The notes under the pieces were generated by a model that was not told the DNA's origin, ran no database searches, and saw only the letters and a list, made by a program, of their open reading frames with translations. Below, piece by piece: positions 809 to 8,775 of a DNA stretch of 8,775 bases (the first letter of the stretch is position 1; each line of letters opens with the position of its first letter). The translations under genes and the position numbers were made by a program. The stretch comes from Caldivirga sp. (GTDB lineage: Archaea; Thermoproteota; Thermoprotei; Thermoproteales; Thermocladiaceae). Location of the stretch: positions 1 through 8,775 of the forward strand of contig JAPWUH010000040.1 in NCBI GenBank assembly GCA_028275645.1, in the 5' to 3' direction.

Positions 809-828
809 GGACCTAACATGTTAGGTCC
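809..828. promoter_or_regulatory. 20-bp perfect palindrome with ARA-box core, probable regulator site of the sugar operon
   Basis: GGACCTAACATGTTAGGTCC is a perfect dyad centred at 818.5. It lies 56.5 bp before the aldolase start codon and about 30 bp upstream of the TATA centre. Its core AACATGTT is identical to the ARA-box core described for arabinose/xylose-induced promoters of Sulfolobus. The 12-mer ACCTAACATGTT recurs at 4931-4942, in front of the isomerase gene, at almost the same distance from that start. A site upstream of TATA suggests an activator rather than a blocking repressor; this is inference. It also lies in the divergent gap, about 53 bp upstream of the TATA box of the minus-strand gene, so it could serve both directions. 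Confidence 0.75.
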
Positions 829-843
829 TGATAATTGCTAATG

Positions 844-853
844 TTTATATATA
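844..853 (+). promoter_or_regulatory. TATA box of the aldolase-AOR-kinase operon
   Basis: TTTATATATA is a strong archaeal box A centred about 26-27 bp before the ATG at 875. The transcript should begin at the start codon, without a leader. No Shine-Dalgarno sequence precedes the ATG. Confidence 0.75.
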
Positions 854-874
854 ACCTAAGGCTAACTTCAAGCT

Positions 875-1543
875 ATGTCATCGGGGGAGGAGGGTGTAGG
901 CTTGGTTAGTGAGGATGAGATTAAGCGGGAGATTGTACGCGTAATGAGGGCGCTGTATGAAAGGGGCCTGGTGTCCGCACTTGGAGGTAATGTGAGTGCA
1001 AGGGTCCCTGGGGCCAGTGAGTTTTGGATAACACCTAGCGGTGTCTTTAAGGGCAACGTTAACGTTGATGACTTAGTTAAGGTTGACTTGGATGGCAACG
1101 TCATTGAGGGTGTCCTTAGGCCATCAACGGAGACGCCCTTCCATGCGGCAATATATAGGGTTAGGCCGGACGTGAACGCCGTCATACATGCACACAACCC
1201 AGTCACACTGGGCCTGGCCCTAGCTGGCGTTAACCTGAAGCCAATATCCGTAGAGGCGGTCATGACCCTTAGGAGGGTTGAGGTTGTCCCCTTCGCCTTC
1301 CCCGGAACAGACCAGTTAGCAAAACTCGTGGCTGATGCTGCGCTCAAGGGTGCACGCGCCATAATACTGATGAACCACGGTGTAGTTGGCCTCGGGGCTA
1401 ATTTGCTTGAGGCTGAGGCCATAGTGGAGACCCTTGAGGAGGTTGCCACGGCTCAATTCGTAGCCATGGCGCTGGGTAAGGAGCCACCTGTAATACCGGA
1501 GAAGGACGTTGAACTGTACATGAAGCTCTACTTCCAGGGTTAG
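875..1543 (+). CDS. Class II aldolase, probable L-rhamnulose/L-fuculose-1-phosphate aldolase
   Basis: A 222-residue zinc aldolase of the AraD/FucA class, close to the family's usual length. Visible motifs in order are GGNVSAR (37-43, phosphate binding), ITPSG (52-56), the STET segment with the likely catalytic acid Glu86, HAH with zinc ligands His105 and His107, and NHG with the third zinc ligand His168. The family cleaves ketose 1-phosphates into dihydroxyacetone phosphate and an aldehyde, L-lactaldehyde when the substrate is rhamnulose or fuculose 1-phosphate, or it epimerises pentulose 5-phosphates. The rhamnulokinase downstream favours rhamnulose 1-phosphate as substrate; sequence alone does not separate this from fuculose 1-phosphate. 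It is the first gene of a tight operon, and its stop codon directly abuts the next start. The ATG is supported by the TATA spacing. The protein is cytosolic, with no signal peptide. Confidence 0.85.
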   Translation: MSSGEEGVGLVSEDEIKREIVRVMRALYERGLVSALGGNVSARVPGASEFWITPSGVFKGNVNVDDLVKVDLDGNVIEGVLRPSTETPFHAAIYRVRPDVNAVIHAHNPVTLGLALAGVNLKPISVEAVMTLRRVEVVPFAFPGTDQLAKLVADAALKGARAIILMNHGVVGLGANLLEAEAIVETLEEVATAQFVAMALGKEPPVIPEKDVELYMKLYFQG

Positions 1544-3418
1544 GTGAGTGGTGTGGTTGATTGGTTTGGTTACATGGGTAAGATACTGGAGGTTGACTTA
1601 ACCAGCAGCAGGGTTAGGGTTAGGGATTTGAAGGAGGAGGACGTCGACATGTTCATAGGCGGCATTGGGTTAGCCACCAAGCTTATCTTCGATGAAATGG
1701 ACCCCAGGGTTGAGCCATTCAGCCCCGATAACGTGCTAATTTTCATGACCGGGCCGTTAACTGGGACAATGGTGCAGTGCAGTGGGCGTTACGTCGTTGC
1801 CGCTAAATCACCTCTAACCATGGCTTGGGGTGAGGCTCACGCATCAGGCTTCTGGGGTGTTGAATTGAAGAGGGCTGGATTCGACGGCATCATAATTAAG
1901 GGTAGGTCAAGTAACCCAGTCTACCTGTACGTGCATGATGGCGAGGTTGAGATACGTGACGCATCCAGGTACTGGGGCTTAACAACAGTTGAAACGGATC
2001 TTAGGATCAAGGAGGAACTTGGCGATAAGGCAGTTCGCGTAGCCGCAATAGGCCCAGCCGGCGAGAGGTTGGTTAGATACGCCATAATAGCCTCCGACAT
2101 AACCCCAGATGGACCTAGGGTTGCGGGTAGGACTGGCATGGGCGCCGTCATGGGTTCTAAGAACCTTAAGGCCATTGCCGTTAAGGGCAGTGGGCAGATT
2201 AAGGTTAAGGACCCTGAGAGGCTTAGGAGTAACATAAATAGGCTACTACCCTACATACTATCCTACCCCACAACCCAAATATACTCGATATACGGCACAG
2301 CGGGTGAGGTTGAGGAATTCTACGAGTACGGTGACATGCCTATAAAGAACTTCACGGTTGGCAAGTGGGATAATGTCTACAACATAAGCGGTAGGGCCTT
2401 TAGGGAGAAGGGCCTTGTTAAAGCTCATAGGGCCTGTTGGGCATGCCCAATACACTGCTGGAAGTACGTCGAGGTCAATGATGTTAAGGGTAGGGGGCCT
2501 GAGTACGAGACCATAGCCTCACTCGGCTCATTACTAATGATCGACGACCCCGAATACATAATCAAGGCCAATGACCTGTGCAACAAGTACGGCATAGATA
2601 CCATATCCACCGGAGTCACCATAGCCTGGGCCATGGAGAGCTTCGAAAAGGGCCTATTGACTAAGGATGATACGGGTGGGTTAGAGCTTAAGTGGGGTGA
2701 TAAGGAGACTGTGCTTAAGCTAATTGAGATGATAGGTAGGCGTGAGGGCTTCGGTAAGCTACTTGGTGAGGGATGCCGCATGGCATCGAGGACGATAGGC
2801 AGGGGCACTGAGAGGTACTGCATGCACGTTAAGGGCACTGAAATGCCCATGCATGACCCAAGGGCCTTTAAGGGCATGGGGCTGCAATACGCAACGTCGA
2901 ATAGGGGGGCTGACCACCTGCAGGGTTTAACATTCAGGATTGAGCAGGGTGAGAGGGTCACGGACCTCAAGATCTACGAGAGGTACGATAGGGTTTCTTA
3001 CATGGGCAAGGGGCGTATAGTGGCCACGATGGAGACTTGGCATGAGGTTCTTGAATCGCTGGTAATATGCAAATTCATAAACATACCACCACTACACCTA
3101 GCCGGAATGTACACCCTCGTAACCGGCAGGAGGAAGACCCTCCAAGACCTTTTAACGGCGGGTAGGCGCATATTCACTTTGAAGAGGATGTTCAATGTCA
3201 TAAACGGCATAAGTAGGAAGGATGATACACTACCTGAGAGATTCCTTAAGGAGCCGTTGAGCGAGGGTGGTGCCAAGGGTCAGGTGGTTGAGCTTGAGCC
3301 TATGCTTGACGAGTACTACAGCTACATGGGGTGGGATAAGGATGGGATACCCACCATCGAAACGCTTAAGGAGTTGGGCATACTGCCAATAGTTGAGAGG
3401 TACATGAACTCAAAGTGA
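1544..3418 (+). CDS. aor: Aldehyde:ferredoxin oxidoreductase (tungsten enzyme, AOR family), probable lactaldehyde oxidase role
   Basis: A 624-residue protein of normal AOR-family length. The N-terminal GYMGKILEVDLT (9-20) begins the family's first domain. RTGMGAVMGSKNLKAI (196-211) is the classic AOR signature. The 4Fe-4S ligands appear as CWACPIHC (Cys298, Cys301, Cys305) with a later candidate Cys509. Pterin-site motifs GIDTISTG (350-357) and TSNRGADHL (451-459) and the C-terminal YYSYMGWDKDGIP (591-603) are also present. Family enzymes oxidise aldehydes to acids using tungsten-bispyranopterin and pass electrons to ferredoxin in the cytosol. Placed between a deoxysugar-phosphate aldolase and a rhamnulokinase, it most likely converts L-lactaldehyde to lactate; that substrate is inferred. 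The GTG start follows the previous stop codon with no gap, so translation is probably coupled; GTG at 1553 is an alternative start. The subfamily (AOR, FOR, GAPOR or other) was not resolved. Confidence 0.9.
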   Translation: MSGVVDWFGYMGKILEVDLTSSRVRVRDLKEEDVDMFIGGIGLATKLIFDEMDPRVEPFSPDNVLIFMTGPLTGTMVQCSGRYVVAAKSPLTMAWGEAHASGFWGVELKRAGFDGIIIKGRSSNPVYLYVHDGEVEIRDASRYWGLTTVETDLRIKEELGDKAVRVAAIGPAGERLVRYAIIASDITPDGPRVAGRTGMGAVMGSKNLKAIAVKGSGQIKVKDPERLRSNINRLLPYILSYPTTQIYSIYGTAGEVEEFYEYGDMPIKNFTVGKWDNVYNISGRAFREKGLVKAHRACWACPIHCWKYVEVNDVKGRGPEYETIASLGSLLMIDDPEYIIKANDLCNKYGIDTISTGVTIAWAMESFEKGLLTKDDTGGLELKWGDKETVLKLIEMIGRREGFGKLLGEGCRMASRTIGRGTERYCMHVKGTEMPMHDPRAFKGMGLQYATSNRGADHLQGLTFRIEQGERVTDLKIYERYDRVSYMGKGRIVATMETWHEVLESLVICKFINIPPLHLAGMYTLVTGRRKTLQDLLTAGRRIFTLKRMFNVINGISRKDDTLPERFLKEPLSEGGAKGQVVELEPMLDEYYSYMGWDKDGIPTIETLKELGILPIVERYMNSK

Positions 3419-3419
3419 C

Positions 3420-4928
3420 GTGGGTATGGAGGTTGCCGTCTTATTGGCAATAGATATAGGGGCCAGTGGGGGTAGGGCCATTGCAGGGGTTTTAGACCTA
3501 AAGAACGGTAGGTTGACGATCGATGAACTACTCAGGTTCCCCAACCAAATAATCAGGGTTGGCAATCACATGCACTGGGACGTACTCCAACTATGGGTTA
3601 ACATAAAGAATTCGATTAAGGCAGCGGTCAGGAAGTATGGCGGCAAATTAGCCTCAGTGGGCGTGGATACGTGGGGGGTTGACTTCGCCCTCCTGGACTC
3701 AAATGACGAACTCCTCGGGCTTCCATACGCCTACAGGGACCCCATGACGGAGGGCTTAATGGATGAGGTTTTCGGCAAAGTGCCCAGGGAGGTGATTTAC
3801 GGTGAAACGGGTATACAATTCATGAGGATAAACACACTATACCAATTATACGCCCTGGTCAAGTACAACCCCCAGAGGCTTAAGGCCGCAAGGTCAATGC
3901 TAATGATACCAGACCTGTTCAACTACTGGCTAAGCGGCGTTAAGGTTAATGAATACACCAACGCAACCACAACCCAGCTCCTGAACGCTAGGGGTAGGAG
4001 ATGGAGCTTTAACATAATGGAGAAGTTGGGTATACCAACCCACATATTCCAGGATATTGTTGATGCAGGCACGCAACTCGGCCACTTGGCGCCAAGTGTC
4101 GCGGAGGAGTTGGGCATACTTAACCTAGGCAGGGATATTAGCGTAATAGCACCGGCAACACACGACACGGCCTCAGCAATTGCAGCAGCCCCCATGGTTA
4201 ATGAGTACACGGGCTACGTAAGCTCGGGTACGTGGAACCTGGTTGGCGTGGAGTTAAGTGAACCTTTAATCAATGAAAAGGCTATGTTAAACAACTTCAC
4301 TAATGAAGGTGGGGCCTTTGGAACGATAACCTTCCTCAGGAACATGCAGGGTATGTGGATCATACAGGAGGTTAGGAGGATAATATCCGATGTTGAGGGT
4401 AGGGATTACTCATACGATGAGTTAACCAAGCTAGCCTCAGAGGTTGATCAACCGGACTCCTTCATAGACGTCGATGACCCAAGGTTCCTAGCGCCAATAA
4501 ACATGGTTGAGGAGGTTAAGGGTTACTTAAGGGAGACTGGGCAGAGGGAACCCAGTAGCCTTGGGGAATTGGTCAGAGTCATAATAACCAGCATTGCCCT
4601 CAAGCATAGGTACATACTTGAGAAGGCTATGGAGATAACGGGTAGGAGACTCAACGGGGTCAACATTATTGGCGGGGGCTCTAGGAACAGCCTAATGAAC
4701 CAGTTAACAGCCAACGTAATGGGTATACCTGTCTATGCAGGGCCTGAGGAATCAACATCACTGGGTAACATACTCATCCAAGCGGCAGGCCTTGGCATGG
4801 TTAAGAACCTGGGTGAGCTTAGGTCCATTGTCAGGGAGTCCTTTAACATTAAGGTTTTTGAACCTAAGGATGAGAGGAGGTATGGGGACCTCTACACGGA
4901 GTTCCTAAATAGGCTCCACCTACATTAA
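3420..4928 (+). CDS. rhaB: Rhamnulokinase (FGGY carbohydrate kinase)
   Basis: A 502-residue FGGY kinase that phosphorylates L-rhamnulose to rhamnulose 1-phosphate. Motifs seen are AIDIGASGGRA (10-20, first phosphate loop), HWD (52-54), GVDTWGVDFALLD (81-93), YRD (105-107), the IPDLFNYWLSGVKVNEYTNA stretch (163-182) followed by TTTQLLN, HDTASA with the likely catalytic Asp249, SSGTWNLVG (268-276, second phosphate loop) and GGGSRNSLMNQLTANV (418-433, adenosine site). The VNEYTN-TTQLLN segment and DTWGVDF are characteristic of RhaB rather than xylulokinase or glycerol kinase. The gene starts 1 nt after the AOR stop with GTG; ATG at 3426 is an equally good start two codons in. It is the third gene of the operon, and its stop codon lies inside the dyad that precedes the isomerase gene. 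Confidence 0.88.
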   Translation: MGMEVAVLLAIDIGASGGRAIAGVLDLKNGRLTIDELLRFPNQIIRVGNHMHWDVLQLWVNIKNSIKAAVRKYGGKLASVGVDTWGVDFALLDSNDELLGLPYAYRDPMTEGLMDEVFGKVPREVIYGETGIQFMRINTLYQLYALVKYNPQRLKAARSMLMIPDLFNYWLSGVKVNEYTNATTTQLLNARGRRWSFNIMEKLGIPTHIFQDIVDAGTQLGHLAPSVAEELGILNLGRDISVIAPATHDTASAIAAAPMVNEYTGYVSSGTWNLVGVELSEPLINEKAMLNNFTNEGGAFGTITFLRNMQGMWIIQEVRRIISDVEGRDYSYDELTKLASEVDQPDSFIDVDDPRFLAPINMVEEVKGYLRETGQREPSSLGELVRVIITSIALKHRYILEKAMEITGRRLNGVNIIGGGSRNSLMNQLTANVMGIPVYAGPEESTSLGNILIQAAGLGMVKNLGELRSIVRESFNIKVFEPKDERRYGDLYTEFLNRLHLH

Positions 4929-4955
4929 CCACCTAACATGTTCAATGGTTAATGT
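4922..4955. promoter_or_regulatory. 34-bp nested dyad with ARA-box core upstream of the isomerase gene
   Basis: Arms ACATTAACCA (4922-4931) and TGGTTAATGT (4946-4955) are exact reverse complements. They share their centre (4938.5) with the inner palindrome AACATGTT (4935-4942), giving 28 of 34 bases in perfect symmetry. The centre is 55.5 bp before the isomerase ATG and 30 bp upstream of the TATA centre, the same geometry as the site at 809-828. The dyad overlaps the kinase stop codon (4926-4928), so it could also fold as a hairpin at the end of the operon transcript. Confidence 0.72.
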
Positions 4956-4964
4956 TAATTATAA

Positions 4965-4972
4965 CTTAAAAG
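4965..4972 (+). promoter_or_regulatory. TATA box of the isomerase gene
   Basis: CTTAAAAG is centred 25.5 bp before the ATG at 4994, consistent with a leaderless transcript. A short palindrome GGTTAACC (4986-4993) directly precedes the start codon, and no Shine-Dalgarno sequence is seen. Confidence 0.6.
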
Positions 4973-4993: not shown

Positions 4994-6103
4994 ATGGCAA
5001 GCCTGGACAGGTTAAGGTCAGCCTACGCAGGCTTCATGGAGGGTAAGGTGGTTGACTCCTTCCTAAGGGAGTTTAACGTCAAGTTTGCAGCCGGGACGTG
5101 GACTGCGGGGGACTTCTCGGACAGGTTCAATAGGGGTGGCTACTTCCCAAACCTACCTGGTGGGTTGGTTAACCAGTTGAGGAGGATTAAGGAGGCTGGT
5201 ATTGAGGGTGTGGTCCCTGTTGATGCCCAGTTCCTGGACGATGAGCTTAAGGTTAGGCGTGACTTGGTGAGTGAGGTTAAGTCAACTGTTAACGAGCTCG
5301 GCCTTAAATTGGCTGGGTTAGCCATGGATTTAACCGGGTTTCACGTATTTAAGCTAGGCACCTTAACAAACCCAGACCCTAAGGTTAGGGAACTGGCCAT
5401 AAGCACATTCACCCAGAGCCTCGACATTGCCCGTGAGCTTGGCGTGGACTCGGTGTCAATATGGCTTGGCTCCGATGGCTGGGACTACAGCCTTGAGGTC
5501 AACTACGGCGGGAAACTTGAGCTACTTTACGACGGCTTACTCAACCTGGGTAAGGAGGCGCTTAGGCTCGGCATAAGGTCCTTTGGAATTGAGGCTAAGC
5601 CCAAGGAGCCCCGTGAAGGCAACTTGATAACGCCAACATCACACGTAACCATTATGTTGGCCAGTAGGTTAAACAGTGAATTGCGTGATAAGTTATTCGG
5701 CATAACGATAGACTATGGCCATGAGTTGATGTACGCCGTTGAACCAGCCTACACGGTTTACGTGGCCAAGTGGATGGGGGTTCCCGTGGTGGTTACCCAC
5801 ATAAACACGGCTAAGTGGCACAGCAACGATGAGGATAGGGTCGTTGGTACAGGGGATGTTTGGCAATTCGTCGACTTCATATATGCACTACTGGACACGG
5901 GTTACTCAGGCTGGTTCACGTTGGATCAATTCACGTATAGGCTTAACCCCGTGGATGGGTTAAGGCTATCGAAGGAGCTGTTCGCCAACCTGTATAAGAG
6001 GGCGCTCATGCTCTACCTATCAAGGGAGGATTTCGAGAAAGTTAGGTCGAGTGGTGACCAGGCTAAGTTGCTTGACTACGTTAAGAGGATTATGTACGGC
6101 TAA
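4994..6103 (+). CDS. rhaI: L-rhamnose isomerase-like sugar isomerase (xylose isomerase-superfamily TIM barrel)
   Basis: A 369-residue metal-dependent aldose-ketose isomerase, probably turning L-rhamnose into L-rhamnulose. By eye it aligns with Pseudomonas-type L-rhamnose isomerase better than with XylA. GTWTAGDFSDRF (34-45) is the N-terminal motif. The seven metal ligands seem complete: Glu200 in IEAKP, Asp240 and His243 in IDYGH, His269 in THINTAK, Asp279 and Asp281 in NDED, and Asp311 in LDQF. The C-terminal LNPVDGLRLSKELFANLYKR (317-336) also fits. Xylose isomerase resemblance is visible at EAKPKEPREG (200-209). The active-site His expected just before the PxD motif appears to be Val73, which may mean a different substrate or a different ring-opening residue. 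The kinase neighbour and the shared operator support the rhamnose role. It has its own promoter and ends 16 bp from the convergent uS5 gene. Confidence 0.78.
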   Translation: MASLDRLRSAYAGFMEGKVVDSFLREFNVKFAAGTWTAGDFSDRFNRGGYFPNLPGGLVNQLRRIKEAGIEGVVPVDAQFLDDELKVRRDLVSEVKSTVNELGLKLAGLAMDLTGFHVFKLGTLTNPDPKVRELAISTFTQSLDIARELGVDSVSIWLGSDGWDYSLEVNYGGKLELLYDGLLNLGKEALRLGIRSFGIEAKPKEPREGNLITPTSHVTIMLASRLNSELRDKLFGITIDYGHELMYAVEPAYTVYVAKWMGVPVVVTHINTAKWHSNDEDRVVGTGDVWQFVDFIYALLDTGYSGWFTLDQFTYRLNPVDGLRLSKELFANLYKRALMLYLSREDFEKVRSSGDQAKLLDYVKRIMYG

Positions 6104-6119
6104 TCAGCCTTAATAAATT

Positions 6120-6737
6120 TCAAATCTTAAACATGTAAGTATTCTTCAAGGCGTTCCAGGTGGCTATGGCGAAGTTGAGTGTGGTTCTTGTTTCACCGAA
6201 GGTCCTAGACCAAACATCCTTAATCCCAGCCAACCTGAGTATTGGCTTTATAGCATCACCAGCAACTAAACCAACACCCTTAGGCGCCGGTATTAACTCA
6301 ACCTCCACACTACCCGCCTTACCCCTAACCACGAACGGCACACTGTGTGGTTCATCGCATGAGCAGTACCATGAGCCGCACCCCCTCCTCACCGGGGTTA
6401 TGTTCACCTTAGCCTTCCTTATGGCCTTCTCCATGGCTGGGCCTATCTGCCTAGCCTTACCTATCCCAAGGCCCACGTAACCATCCTCATTACCCAGCGC
6501 CACGACCACCTGGAATTGACTAACCTCACCTGCGTCGGTCTGCCTCTGAACTATGTTTATACTGAGGACCTCATACTTAAGGTTGGTGAGCAGGGCGTCC
6601 ACTATCTCGGGTTCCTGTATCCTGGCGTTAGCCATGAATATGTCGTCGATGGACTTCACCTTACCCTCCTTAACAAGCCTACCAATCTCAGTCCTAGGCT
6701 TCCACTCCTCAAGGTTGGCGGTAGGTACCTCAGACAT
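6120..6737 (-). CDS. rps5: 30S ribosomal protein uS5 (S5p)
   Basis: A 205-residue archaeal uS5, a component of the small ribosomal subunit that lines the mRNA entry region and affects decoding accuracy. The double-stranded RNA-binding half is recognisable from IVDALLTNLKYEVLSINIVQ (45-64). GYVGLGIGKA (86-95) is the uS5 signature. The archaeal/eukaryotic-style insertion RRGCGSWYCSCDEPHSVPF (117-135) carries Cys120, Cys125 and Cys127, and SVEVELIPAPKGVGLVAGD (143-161) is the conserved C-terminal core. The ATG at 6737 is supported by a TATA box centred about 27 bp upstream. In most archaea this gene lies in the spc operon before L30 and L15; here it stands alone, with its 3' end facing the sugar isomerase gene. 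Confidence 0.95.
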   Translation of the reverse strand: MSEVPTANLEEWKPRTEIGRLVKEGKVKSIDDIFMANARIQEPEIVDALLTNLKYEVLSINIVQRQTDAGEVSQFQVVVALGNEDGYVGLGIGKARQIGPAMEKAIRKAKVNITPVRRGCGSWYCSCDEPHSVPFVVRGKAGSVEVELIPAPKGVGLVAGDAIKPILRLAGIKDVWSRTFGETRTTLNFAIATWNALKNTYMFKI

Positions 6738-6759
6738 CGCTCAATCAACCCAGTTACCC

Positions 6760-6768
6760 TTTTTAAAT
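6760..6768 (-). promoter_or_regulatory. TATA box of the uS5 gene
   Basis: On the minus strand this reads ATTTAAAAA, centred about 27 bp upstream of the uS5 ATG, predicting a leaderless transcript. The divergent TATA box of the next gene lies only about 40 bp away. Confidence 0.65.
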
Positions 6769-6803
6769 CTAGCCCCTGGATCGTTAAGACAAGCTGGGAG
6801 TAA

Positions 6804-6813
6804 CTTTTATTTA
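6804..6813 (+). promoter_or_regulatory. TATA box of the coiled-coil protein gene
   Basis: CTTTTATTTA is centred about 26 bp before the GTG at 6834. The spacing supports GTG as a leaderless start; no ribosome binding site is seen. Confidence 0.55.
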
Positions 6814-6833
6814 CTTAACCAGGATAGTTAACC

Positions 6834-7352
6834 GTGGGTGTTGAGGGGCTTGACGTAAAGGAGCTGCTTGAGCTTAGGAGGAGGATTAGGGAGAGGATTA
6901 ATGAACTTAGGGATGAGTTGAACATGCTTGAGTCCACTCTCAAGGTCATAGACTCCCTGATAAAGGCCGGCTCAATAACCACGGCCGATAGGGTTCAGCC
7001 TAGGGAAGGCTCAATAAGCCTAACGACACCCAACGGTGAGGAGTTGGCGAAGTTAACGTACAACGACGAGGAGGTGGTGATAGAGTTCAATAAGCCAATC
7101 AGCGAGCAGCCGCCTTTAAGGAGGTTCTTCATAGAGAAGGTGCTTAATGGGCTTAGGGGTGAGGATGAGGAATTAGTTAACAGTGGTGAGCTTGAGGAGT
7201 CGATGGCGTTGAATTACGACGTTGAGAGGAACAGTGAGGGCTTGATCACTAGGATAGTGATTAGGAATTATAGGGATCAGCGCAGGTTAAAAAGGATAAT
7301 TGAGGCCATTAAGTGGACTATATCTAAGCTTGGGGAGAAGCAGGGTAGCTAG
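6834..7352 (+). CDS. Conserved-looking coiled-coil protein of unknown function
   Basis: I do not recognise this 172-residue protein. Residues about 7-44 form a highly charged heptad-type helix (LLELRRRIRERINELRDELN at 11-30) that should be a coiled coil. Residues about 59-88 look like a small beta unit (SISLTTPNGEE, then KLTYNDEEVVIEF). Residues 92-116 are a charged helix, and the end combines a strand (LITRIVIRNY, 137-146) with a basic helix (RRLKRIIEAIKWTISKL, 150-166). No signal peptide, membrane segment, cysteine cluster or catalytic motif is visible, so it is probably cytosolic and may act through protein-protein contacts. Codon use looks like that of its neighbours. It lies between uS5 and the Bud32 kinase with its own promoter, and its stop overlaps that of the convergent kinase gene. 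A translation- or KEOPS-related role would be a guess. Confidence 0.8.
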   Translation: MGVEGLDVKELLELRRRIRERINELRDELNMLESTLKVIDSLIKAGSITTADRVQPREGSISLTTPNGEELAKLTYNDEEVVIEFNKPISEQPPLRRFFIEKVLNGLRGEDEELVNSGELEESMALNYDVERNSEGLITRIVIRNYRDQRRLKRIIEAIKWTISKLGEKQGS

Positions 7353-8002
7353 GTTAACCTACCCGTGTAATACCTAGCCAAGCTCCTAATCCTCCTAACC
7401 CACCTCATAACCAGCTCCGCCTTATCAACCACTGAGCTGTAGCCATCCATGAAGTCTCTGAAGAGTGCGTTGCCAATTTCGCCGTAGTTGCTTTCAAGGG
7501 ACCTGAGTAGGACGTTTAGGTCTATGGCAGCTCTCTTAAGGTATCTGTCATCCCAAGTTGGCCTAGCCCTCTCCCCAAGCCCAAAATCCACCAGGTACTC
7601 GTCGCTATTACTAACCAGCACGTTAGCCGGCGTTGGGTCACCGTGGAGCACGCCACCAGCGTGTAATATACCTATCAGCTCGCCCATCCTCCTCATCAGC
7701 GTCTTCACGAGTCCTGAGTAGCCGTTGGCCCTTATGATGCTGTTAAGCGTCGGCGCCTCAATGTACTGCATCCTTATCCTAGCCCTAACAACATCAACAT
7801 CGTAAATCACAGGCGTCTTAACACCCAACTCGGCCGCATCCATGATTAACCTAGCCTCGTTAATAGTCCTCCTAACCCTAATCATCCTATCGAAGACGGG
7901 GTCCCTATACCCCTTAGGCACCCTCTCCTTAACGAGCACCGTTAATCCAAGCCAATCCTCAAGGTAAAGCAGGGCCTCAGCACCCTTAGCTATAACCCTC
8001 AT
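7349..8002 (-). CDS. bud32: Bud32/Kae1-associated serine/threonine kinase (KEOPS subunit)
   Basis: A small atypical kinase of the piD261/Bud32 family, a KEOPS subunit needed for the t6A modification of tRNAs that read ANN codons. Starting from ATG at 8002 it has 217 residues, near the family norm. Motifs are AKGAEALLY (5-13, replacing a glycine-rich loop), VKERVPKGYR (24-33) with the likely ATP-binding lysine, RTINEARL (45-52), HGDPTPANVLV (120-130, catalytic Asp122 and Asn127), VDFGLG (138-143) and the basic tail RRIRSLARYYTGRLT. Upstream TTG (8014) and ATG (8011) are in frame, but the TATA centre at about 8028 places transcription initiation near 8002, and family members begin just before this glycine-alanine-glutamate motif. 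It is not fused to Kae1, which is not in this window. The gene is convergent with the coiled-coil gene and divergent from uL15. Confidence 0.9.
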   Translation of the reverse strand: MRVIAKGAEALLYLEDWLGLTVLVKERVPKGYRDPVFDRMIRVRRTINEARLIMDAAELGVKTPVIYDVDVVRARIRMQYIEAPTLNSIIRANGYSGLVKTLMRRMGELIGILHAGGVLHGDPTPANVLVSNSDEYLVDFGLGERARPTWDDRYLKRAAIDLNVLLRSLESNYGEIGNALFRDFMDGYSSVVDKAELVMRWVRRIRSLARYYTGRLT

Positions 8003-8023
8003 CAGCCCCATCAACGTTGCAAA

Positions 8024-8032
8024 GTTTTAAAC
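8024..8032. promoter_or_regulatory. Shared, nearly symmetric TATA element between bud32 and uL15 genes
   Basis: GTTTTAAAC reads as a TATA box on both strands. It is centred about 26 bp from ATG 8002 (bud32, minus) and about 25 bp from GTG 8053 (uL15, plus), the same spacing as the other promoters here. It is the only AT-rich element in the 50-bp gap, so one box probably drives both genes. This also decides the start chosen for each. Confidence 0.6.
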
Positions 8033-8052
8033 CCTACCCATTAAGGGTGCCT

Positions 8053-8496
8053 GTGAGGCGTAGGGAAAGGAAGTCCAGGAAGCTTAGGGGTTGGAGAACC
8101 CACTCCTGGGGTAGGGTTGGGCAGCATAGGGGTAGGGGGCAGAGGGGAGGTGGAGGTAGGGTGGGTTTACTTAAGCATAAGAAGAGCCTACTCCTAAAGC
8201 TAACCAACGGTGAACTATACCCACTGATAGGTAAGCACGGCTTCTACAGGCCCAGCAGGGAGGTTAAGGCAATTAACGTAGGCGACCTAAGCGCCCTAGC
8301 CGACTCACTAATCAGGAAGGGCCTTGTTAAGGAGGAGGGTGGCAGATATGTCATTGACCTAACCCAGTTGGGCTACGGCAAACTGCTCGGTGGGGGGAGG
8401 CTTACGAGGCCAATTGTGGTTAAGGTTAAGGCGGCCTCGGCTAAGGCTATTAGGGCTGTTAAGGAGGCCGGTGGGGAGGTTTTAATAACCCAGTAA
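8053..8496 (+). CDS. rpl15: 50S ribosomal protein uL15 (L15p)
   Basis: A 147-residue archaeal uL15, a large-subunit protein with a long basic N-terminal extension that threads into 23S rRNA. The start region RRRERKSRKLRGWRTHSWGR (2-21) and the following basic, glycine-rich stretch QHRGRGQRGGGG are typical. GKHGF (60-64) and GYGKLLGGG (about 107-115) are family motifs, and the C-terminal half ending AVKEAGGEV is the L15/L18e fold. The reading frame is open from TTG 8017, and GTG 8047 is another possible start (149 residues). GTG 8053 fits both the TATA spacing and the family's short pre-RR N-terminus. In other archaea L15 follows L30 and precedes SecY; neither is beside it here. Confidence 0.93.
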   Translation: MRRRERKSRKLRGWRTHSWGRVGQHRGRGQRGGGGRVGLLKHKKSLLLKLTNGELYPLIGKHGFYRPSREVKAINVGDLSALADSLIRKGLVKEEGGRYVIDLTQLGYGKLLGGGRLTRPIVVKVKAASAKAIRAVKEAGGEVLITQ

Positions 8497-8507
8497 TAAT
8501 CATAATG

Positions 8508-8514
8508 CTTATAC
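8508..8514 (+). promoter_or_regulatory. TATA box of the triosephosphate isomerase gene
   Basis: CTTATAC is centred 27 bp before ATG 8538, 12 bp after the uL15 stop, so the isomerase gene can be transcribed independently and without a leader. Confidence 0.55.
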
Positions 8515-8518
8515 ACCC

Positions 8519-8533
8519 CCAGTTCTTAACTGG
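8519..8533. promoter_or_regulatory. Inverted repeat between TATA box and start of the triosephosphate isomerase gene
   Basis: CCAGTT-CTT-AACTGG forms a 6-bp dyad with a 3-nt spacer, 5 to 19 bp before the start codon. If the transcript is leaderless this acts as DNA only, in the position of a repressor site over the initiation region. A 6-bp dyad can arise by chance. Confidence 0.35.
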
Positions 8534-8547
8534 ACCCATGAGGGTCC
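8532..8547. promoter_or_regulatory. Inverted repeat spanning the triosephosphate isomerase start codon
   Basis: GGACCC-ATGA-GGGTCC is a 6-bp dyad whose 4-nt centre contains the ATG. It overlaps the previous repeat by two bases. It could be a regulator site at the transcription start, or a start-codon hairpin if the mRNA has a leader; chance is not excluded. Confidence 0.3.
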
Positions 8548-8775
8548 CCGTACTCATAATAAACATGAAGGCCTACCCAGAGCTACTTAATGGTGGTGCT
8601 GTTAAGCTTGCTAAGGCAGCTGAGAAGGTGGCTAGGGAGCTTGGGGCGAGCATAATCGTCGCCCCACCCCACACCTACCTAAGGCAGGTGGTTGAGGCAG
8701 TGGGCATACCGGTCTACGCCCAGTCAGCCGACCCAGTGGACCCGGGTGCTAGGACAGGGCACATACCGCTTGAGT
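8538..8775 (+). CDS. tpiA: Triosephosphate isomerase, N-terminal part (runs off the window)
   Basis: The first 79 residues of an archaeal-type triosephosphate isomerase, which interconverts dihydroxyacetone phosphate and glyceraldehyde 3-phosphate in glycolysis and gluconeogenesis. The catalytic Asn9-Met-Lys11 of the NMKAY motif, APPHTYLR (42-49), and VYAQSADPVDPGARTGHIPL (59-78) are clear family motifs; the electrophile histidine and glutamate base lie beyond the window. Archaeal forms are about 225 residues, so roughly a third is visible. The ATG is fixed by the motif and by TATA spacing. The enzyme would take up dihydroxyacetone phosphate released by the aldolase at 875-1543, but its own promoter and its position beside ribosomal genes point to a housekeeping role. 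Confidence 0.93.
   Translation, partial: MRVPVLIINMKAYPELLNGGAVKLAKAAEKVARELGASIIVAPPHTYLRQVVEAVGIPVYAQSADPVDPGARTGHIPLE

Follow-up and report, generated by a model that had tools for sequence, protein, structure and literature searches.

A conserved box related to the Ara-box precedes predicted rhamnose genes in Caldivirga and is a candidate regulon operator

The closest described counterpart of the element considered here is the Ara-box AACATGTT of the Sulfolobales, which together with the activator XylR (saci_2116) defines a pentose regulon; in S. acidocaldarius, changing a single base among the two at the end of the Ara-box (TT) almost abolishes promoter activity (PMC7264815). The stretch of DNA analysed here, 8,775 nucleotides from Caldivirga sp. 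(contig JAPWUH010000040.1 of assembly GCA_028275645.1; hereafter the window), is the entire contig C25 of a 1.32-Mb genome (G000; 209 contigs, 68% complete) and bears two related dyads, one before an aldolase operon and the other before an isomerase gene. We propose, with a probability of about 0.6, that a box of the form CCTAAC-NN-GTT(AGG) at both places serves a rhamnose regulon as its operator, to which a XylR-like activator of the HTH_10 family is predicted to bind. The comparison covers five Caldivirga genomes in all, G000 and its relatives G002 (a complete genome in a single contig of 2,077,567 bases), G003 (Caldivirga sp. MU80), G004 and G005. To our knowledge, Thermoproteales have so far yielded few operators and activators, and among open-access titles and the beginnings of abstracts, subscription journals lying outside this set, we found no rhamnose regulon, Ara-box or XylR relative for Caldivirga or any other member of the order. 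With a defined box, a small set of genes, and a candidate inducer and regulator family, a sugar regulon of Thermoproteales becomes directly testable.

The first dyad is the perfect 20-bp palindrome GGACCTAACATGTTAGGTCC at 809-828 (no strand assigned), within which the conserved box CCTAACATGTTAGG occupies 812-825; it is the window's only perfect palindrome with 10-bp arms, and one of 100 mononucleotide shuffles contained such a palindrome. The second, at 4922-4955 (likewise without strand), is a 34-bp dyad whose 10-bp outer arms, ACATTAACCA and TGGTTAATGT, have the same centre as the box of the isomerase promoter (CCTAACATGTTCAA, 4932-4945, + strand), which consists of one full half-site plus GTT. 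Both dyads exist as the sequence-only reading had described them, sharing the core AACATGTT, whose only exact occurrences in the window are at 815-822 and 4935-4942, and the 12-mer ACCTAACATGTT (811-822 and 4931-4942). Measured on the window, their centres stand 56.5 bp (aldolase) and 55.5 bp (isomerase) before the start codons, as claimed, and the spacing of about 30 bp to the TATA centre proves to be 29 bp for the aldolase operon (TATA element TTTATATA, 844-851, + strand) and 30 bp for the isomerase gene (CTTAAAAG, 4965-4972, + strand), these elements being consensus matches. At the genome rate (26 in 1.32 Mb), two exact cores in 8775 bases correspond to a Poisson P of 0.013.

The box is found at orthologous loci in all five Caldivirga genomes, where its absence from relatives had been named beforehand as a ground for giving up the idea of a regulon. 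Upstream of the aldolase, every genome has ACCTAAC-NN-GTTAGG, with AT at the centre in four and TT in G005. In the alignment of this promoter (153 columns), invariance holds for 14 of 15 columns within the box and for 27 of the 138 outside it (Fisher P 1.8e-8, a post hoc value in that the motif had already been seen, from an alignment in which the window genome hardly differs from MU80). At the isomerase promoter, CCTAAC-NN-GTT recurs in all five with the centres AT, AT, CT, CT and CC, the start of the box overlapping the kinase stop codon in G002, G004 and G005. The exact core AACATGTT is present in the aldolase box of four genomes and in the isomerase box of two, the remainder retaining AAC-NN-GTT, and GTT is present in the aldolase, isomerase and dehydrogenase boxes of all five. 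Since the centre of the box varies (AT, TT, CT, CC), AACATGTT is not the conserved unit: it is common to the two window sites, as first noticed, but judging from the alignments the unit that is conserved is CCTAAC-NN-GTT(AGG), in which a dinucleotide free to vary is flanked by half-sites, either two complete ones or one complete and one half. We set aside the outer arms of the 34-bp dyad, which are unconserved beyond this lineage, with two changes in the 3' arm in MU80 and the 5' arm missing in the other three genomes.

The genes behind the two window boxes are predicted, from their families, to form a pathway of isomerase, rhamnulokinase-like kinase, class II aldolase and aldehyde ferredoxin oxidoreductase. 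The aldolase (875-1543, + strand; PF00596, 170 bits), whose predicted substrate for cleavage is rhamnulose 1-phosphate or some related ketose 1-phosphate, has L-fuculose-phosphate aldolases as its nearest solved relatives. Directly after its stop codon follows the GTG start of the aldehyde ferredoxin oxidoreductase (1544-3418, + strand; PF02730/PF01314; family of PDB 1aor), for which lactaldehyde oxidation is predicted, and then the rhamnulokinase-like FGGY kinase (3420-4928, + strand; TIGR02627), 94% identical to the kinase of MU80 and of a kind present in 5 of the 45 genomes of the order, every one Caldivirga. Behind the second box lies a xylose-isomerase-like TIM-barrel protein (4994-6103, + strand; PF01261; best PDB match 3ktc), predicted to be a sugar (rhamnose) isomerase. 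The phosphorylative L-rhamnose pathway of bacterial type consists of an isomerase, a rhamnulokinase and an aldolase. Caldivirga resembles it in that genes for a class II aldolase, a rhamnulokinase-like kinase and an isomerase-like protein adjoin each other. It differs in that an aldehyde ferredoxin oxidoreductase is part of the operon, that the isomerase resembles RhaI only distantly and that the aldolase is closer to fuculose-phosphate aldolases. Such a deoxyhexose route would pass the electrons of lactaldehyde into ferredoxin.

Further box-bearing genes emerge from the context of CCTAACNNGTT sites, which was read for all sites in G000 (21 distinct), G002 (11) and G004 (9), for all but C41 and C43:126277 in G005 and for a few in G003, the sites being sorted against open reading frames (ORFs) called mechanically at 80 aa or more. 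Six of the 11 distinct sites in G002 lie inside ORFs and five are centred outside, all of these before sugar genes: the aldolase, the isomerase, a major facilitator superfamily (MFS) porter, which has two, and a Zn-dehydrogenase. With 8-15% of the genome outside ORFs, the binomial P for at least 5 of 11 sites is 0.001-0.016. G004 has six of its nine sites inside ORFs and the other three before the aldolase, isomerase and dehydrogenase genes. Box sites in G002 and G004 do not show the random scatter that the sequence-only reading had named as counting against it. In G000, 13 of the 21 distinct sites are inside ORFs, and four of the eight outside precede the aldolase, the isomerase, the dehydrogenase and a GH106 gene. 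The 346-aa Zn-dehydrogenase is boxed in all five genomes (the G002 protein being 80-92% identical to the other four), and its best PDB match is the D-arabinose 1-dehydrogenase of S. solfataricus, 2h6e (E 1.1e-93 and 2.7e-93), an Ara-box regulon enzyme with L-fucose among its substrates. The GH106 alpha-L-rhamnosidase-family gene stands behind a box at the same place in G000, where it is in three pieces at a contig end, and in MU80, where it is intact (997 aa; PF17132 50.3 bits, cut-off 29). The MU80 protein scores 76 bits with the NCBIfam alpha-L-rhamnosidase model, far below the cut-off of 1300, and in the PDB only its C-terminal sugar-binding part was matched; the partial piece gave no match. 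The MFS porter (454 aa in G002, Sugar_tr) is found in four of the five genomes and has GCTAACATGTTCAGG before it in MU80. Two other boxed genes stand apart. On C47 of G005 (L065 1430-2673), an exact CCTAACAGGTTAGG lies 23 bp before the TATA-like CTTAATAA and is followed by a 399-aa protein without a Pfam family, possibly a further member of the regulon. The thiazole-kinase-family gene on C17 of G000, whose box lies 60.5 bp before the start, was kept out on account of its box-TATA distance (35 bp) and of a reading confined to this one genome.

The distance between box and TATA also recurs, a descriptive measure since TATA was taken as the best-scoring match 4-35 bp after the box. From centre to centre it is 29, 29, 31, 31 and 31 bp at the aldolase promoters of the five genomes, 30 bp at all five isomerase promoters, and 29 bp both for the proximal box of the MFS porter in G002 and for its box in MU80, whereas the dehydrogenase promoters have 19 bp in all five genomes and the rhamnosidase gene has a gap of 10, so a centre distance of 18 bp. 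The spacings fall into two classes, 29-31 and 18-19 bp, that are 10-13 bp apart, or about one helical turn, leaving as misfits the distal MFS box of G002 (22), the C17 gene mentioned above, the L144 sites (32/35/40), the distal L136 site (20) and the xylF site of a Sulfolobus genome (40). Archaeal activators use positions upstream of TATA and the transcription factor B recognition element (BRE). It is conceivable that the box is instead a repressor site, where a sugar-responsive repressor blocks the promoter until the sugar releases it: in front of the dehydrogenase and rhamnosidase genes, only some 7-8 bp separate the end of the box from TATA, and a dimer bound there could hinder transcription factor B (TFB). 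However, the aldolase, isomerase and MFS boxes lie upstream of TATA and any BRE, a position used by archaeal activators. The Ara-box of Sulfolobus, moreover, works with an activator (PMC7264815), and we regard repression as quite improbable. Activation, which we infer only from the position of the box upstream of TATA, would proceed as follows. The sugar-loaded regulator would dimerise on the box, both subunits contacting the same face of the DNA just upstream of TATA and BRE, and, going by this position and the Sulfolobus precedent, would help to recruit TATA-binding protein and TFB, thereby switching on genes for the release, uptake and breakdown of rhamnose. Through isomerisation, phosphorylation and cleavage, the induced enzymes would convert rhamnose to dihydroxyacetone phosphate plus lactaldehyde, the latter to be oxidised by the aldehyde ferredoxin oxidoreductase that the aldolase operon encodes.

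Several observations weigh against a rhamnose operator bound by a XylR-like activator, and they concern the sites themselves, the sugar and the regulator. With one mismatch allowed, the window holds six AACATGTT sites, and because 12 of 200 shuffles reach six, the count of the 8-mer in the window is weak on its own. Genome-wide, CCTAACNNGTTAGG with up to two mismatches occurs 58, 75, 115, 67 and 92 times in G000, G002, G003, G004 and G005, versus 65, 134, 114, 108 and 110 times for the reversed pattern, and CCTAACNNGTT occurs 23, 12, 33, 10 and 13 times on both strands versus 10, 21, 19, 22 and 22, so that neither is enriched over its reversed pattern across the five Caldivirga genomes. In G000, CCTAACATGTT with up to two mismatches is found 281 times (reversed pattern, 191) and AACATGTT 26 times (reversed word, 4, a control that is not composition-matched for a thermophile). 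A proof of the motif by counting failed against reversed-pattern controls, and the case for the box is one of location, not of the number of sites. In addition, the isomerase box is a half-palindrome only, and the other four of the eight outside-ORF sites in G000 are not before recognised rhamnose genes: that on C2 precedes a 412-aa protein (redox-related by eye), that on C56 has no gene start nearby, that on C199 lies 68.5 bp before a 428-aa ORF, and that on C205 lies ahead of a 428-aa ORF as well as a gene for a family 2 glycosyltransferase. In G005 the MFS gene is intact with no box seen upstream, and the copy in G004 is broken (L082, C8:3146-4042), adjoining an HTH_10 match. It could be argued that these palindromes arose by chance, or that they belong to the basal promoter and no regulator is dedicated to them, given that 16 of the 26 AACATGTT sites in the 1.32 Mb of G000 lie inside ORFs and that loose matches do not exceed the reversed control. 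However, the island of conservation at the aldolase box, the fact that in G002 and G004 the outside-ORF sites all precede sugar genes, and the recurrence of box-TATA distances render such an origin highly improbable, the genome comparison having already made the chance palindrome unlikely. Ten AACATGTT sites of G000 are outside ORFs, and five lie 55-61 bp before ORF starts (Poisson P ~5e-5, with 1500 genes assumed), namely those of the aldolase, the isomerase and the C17 gene and the two of a divergent pair on C74, formed by a 153-aa ORF and the gene for an SBP_bac_5 binding protein.

As for the sugar, neither the kinase nor the aldolase nor the isomerase reaches the curated NCBIfam cut-offs for rhamnose enzymes: the kinase scores 485 bits where 528 are required, and the aldolase and isomerase fall far below any model (for the isomerase, 84 bits with xylA_Arthro and 32 bits with RhaI_grampos, both far under cut-off). 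Since the aldolase and the isomerase are below every curated cut-off, the boxed genes could act on another 6-deoxyhexose, such as L-fucose, or on a pentose. The boxed GH106 alpha-L-rhamnosidase-family gene, on the other hand, supports rhamnose as the sugar. Of the rhamnose regulon first suggested, what stands is a box conserved in five of five genomes that also precedes the GH106 and MFS porter genes; the sugar may be another, and the link to XylR is that of a candidate.

The candidate was found through Sulfolobus. In a Sulfolobus genome (G106), TTTAACATGTTAAA lies upstream of xylFGH, and the fourth gene beyond them encodes a 231-aa HTH_10 protein, taken as XylR by its gene position. An initial assignment of XylR to the IclR family was wrong, PF01614 being present in none of the 45 genomes of the order and XylR being HTH_10. 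HTH_10 matches number 2, 12, 12, 9 and 13 in G000, G002, G003, G004 and G005 (48 in total), and 41 of the 42 regions examined hold an ORF that is XylR-like over its full length (best E 2e-27). Homologues of the kind that the sequence-only reading asked for are present in all five genomes, but none adjoins the rhamnose cluster: in G000, G003, G004 and G005 the 48 matches are all on contigs other than that of the cluster, and in G002 some 67 kb separate the cluster from the closest match. Nor does a tree of the HTH_10 proteins single out a clear XylR orthologue to go with the boxes. In G005, an HTH_10 gene adjoins the MFS porter divergently, though the porter is without a box. It is possible, if unlikely, that the rhamnose operator is bound by a regulator of another family (TrmB-like or other winged-helix) and that its likeness to the Ara-box reflects convergence on a short palindrome. 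Such a regulator would agree with the lack of an HTH_10 gene near the rhamnose cluster, with the variable centre and with flanks unlike those of the xylF box, but against it stand the AACATGTT promoters beside HTH_10 genes and the homology of the boxed dehydrogenase to a Sulfolobus D-arabinose dehydrogenase. Six of 41 HTH_10 loci (L185, L227, L228, L230, L243 and L244) have AACATGTT 40-120 bp before an ORF start, L185 having been chosen for its boxes and the other five for HTH_10. HTH_10 is likely to be the regulator family of the rhamnose boxes, as a candidate, and the Caldivirga system has in common with that of the Sulfolobales the motif AAC-NN-GTT, often as AACATGTT, the location upstream of TATA before genes for sugar uptake and breakdown, the dehydrogenase and the XylR family itself. 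By contrast, the flanks are CCT/AGG in Caldivirga and TTT/AAA at the xylF box of G106, the Caldivirga centre is not fixed, the boxed genes are predicted for rhamnose, and the xylF site falls outside both spacing classes by the same scoring. The terminal TT agrees with the Ara-box, the flanks do not, and the exact core is found at some of the promoters; overall, the element is a well-supported regulon box related to the Ara-box, not a proven Ara-box.

A more general scenario, which we put forward tentatively and at somewhat less than even odds, is that one code operates across Sulfolobales and Thermoproteales, in which XylR-like HTH_10 proteins would recognise AAC-NN-GTT, the flanking triplets would set the sugar (CCT/AGG for rhamnose) and whole helical turns (18-19 or 29-31 bp) would separate box and TATA, with a phosphorylative rhamnose route in Caldivirga ending in ferredoxin-linked lactaldehyde oxidation. 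The findings also suggest how an expanded set of regulators could share one box type among several sugars. Within Caldivirga, HTH_10/SBP_bac_5 loci resemble the window in having AACATGTT about 56 bp before the start, but differ in that the box is doubled, at a spacing of 55-56 bp, and lacks the CCTAAC flank. Among 30 SBP_bac_5 loci examined, six have any AACATGTT and four, in G000, MU80, G002 and G005, have such a pair (L043 1501-1563, which is the C74 locus of G000, L119, L136 and L144); in G000, MU80 and G002 the near box precedes the start codon by some 56 bp (56-58 in G000 and G002). HTH_10 lies within 3 kb of four of the ten SBP_bac_5 matches in G002. On C73 of MU80 (L185 3397-6256), two sulfatase-family genes are near an SBP_bac_5 transporter with AACATGTT, with an HTH_10 gene ~3.5 kb beyond, and this region is possibly a sulfated-sugar locus.

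Beyond the isomerase, the window (6120-8775) encodes ribosomal protein S5, a 172-aa protein without an assigned family, a small kinase-like protein and an L15-family protein, a gene order from S5 to L15 that is retained in four relatives; by eye, the start of triosephosphate isomerase follows the L15-family gene at the 3' end. At the other end (1-741, - strand) lies an ADP-ribosylglycohydrolase-family frame with an in-frame stop, cut by the contig end, whose MU80 copy is intact (632 aa, PF03747). The upstream neighbour of the rhamnose cluster is a divergent sugar-porter MFS gene in G002 (L052 14046-15434), a DHDPS-family gene in G004 and, in G005, one whose product has a Cas12f1-like TNB domain.

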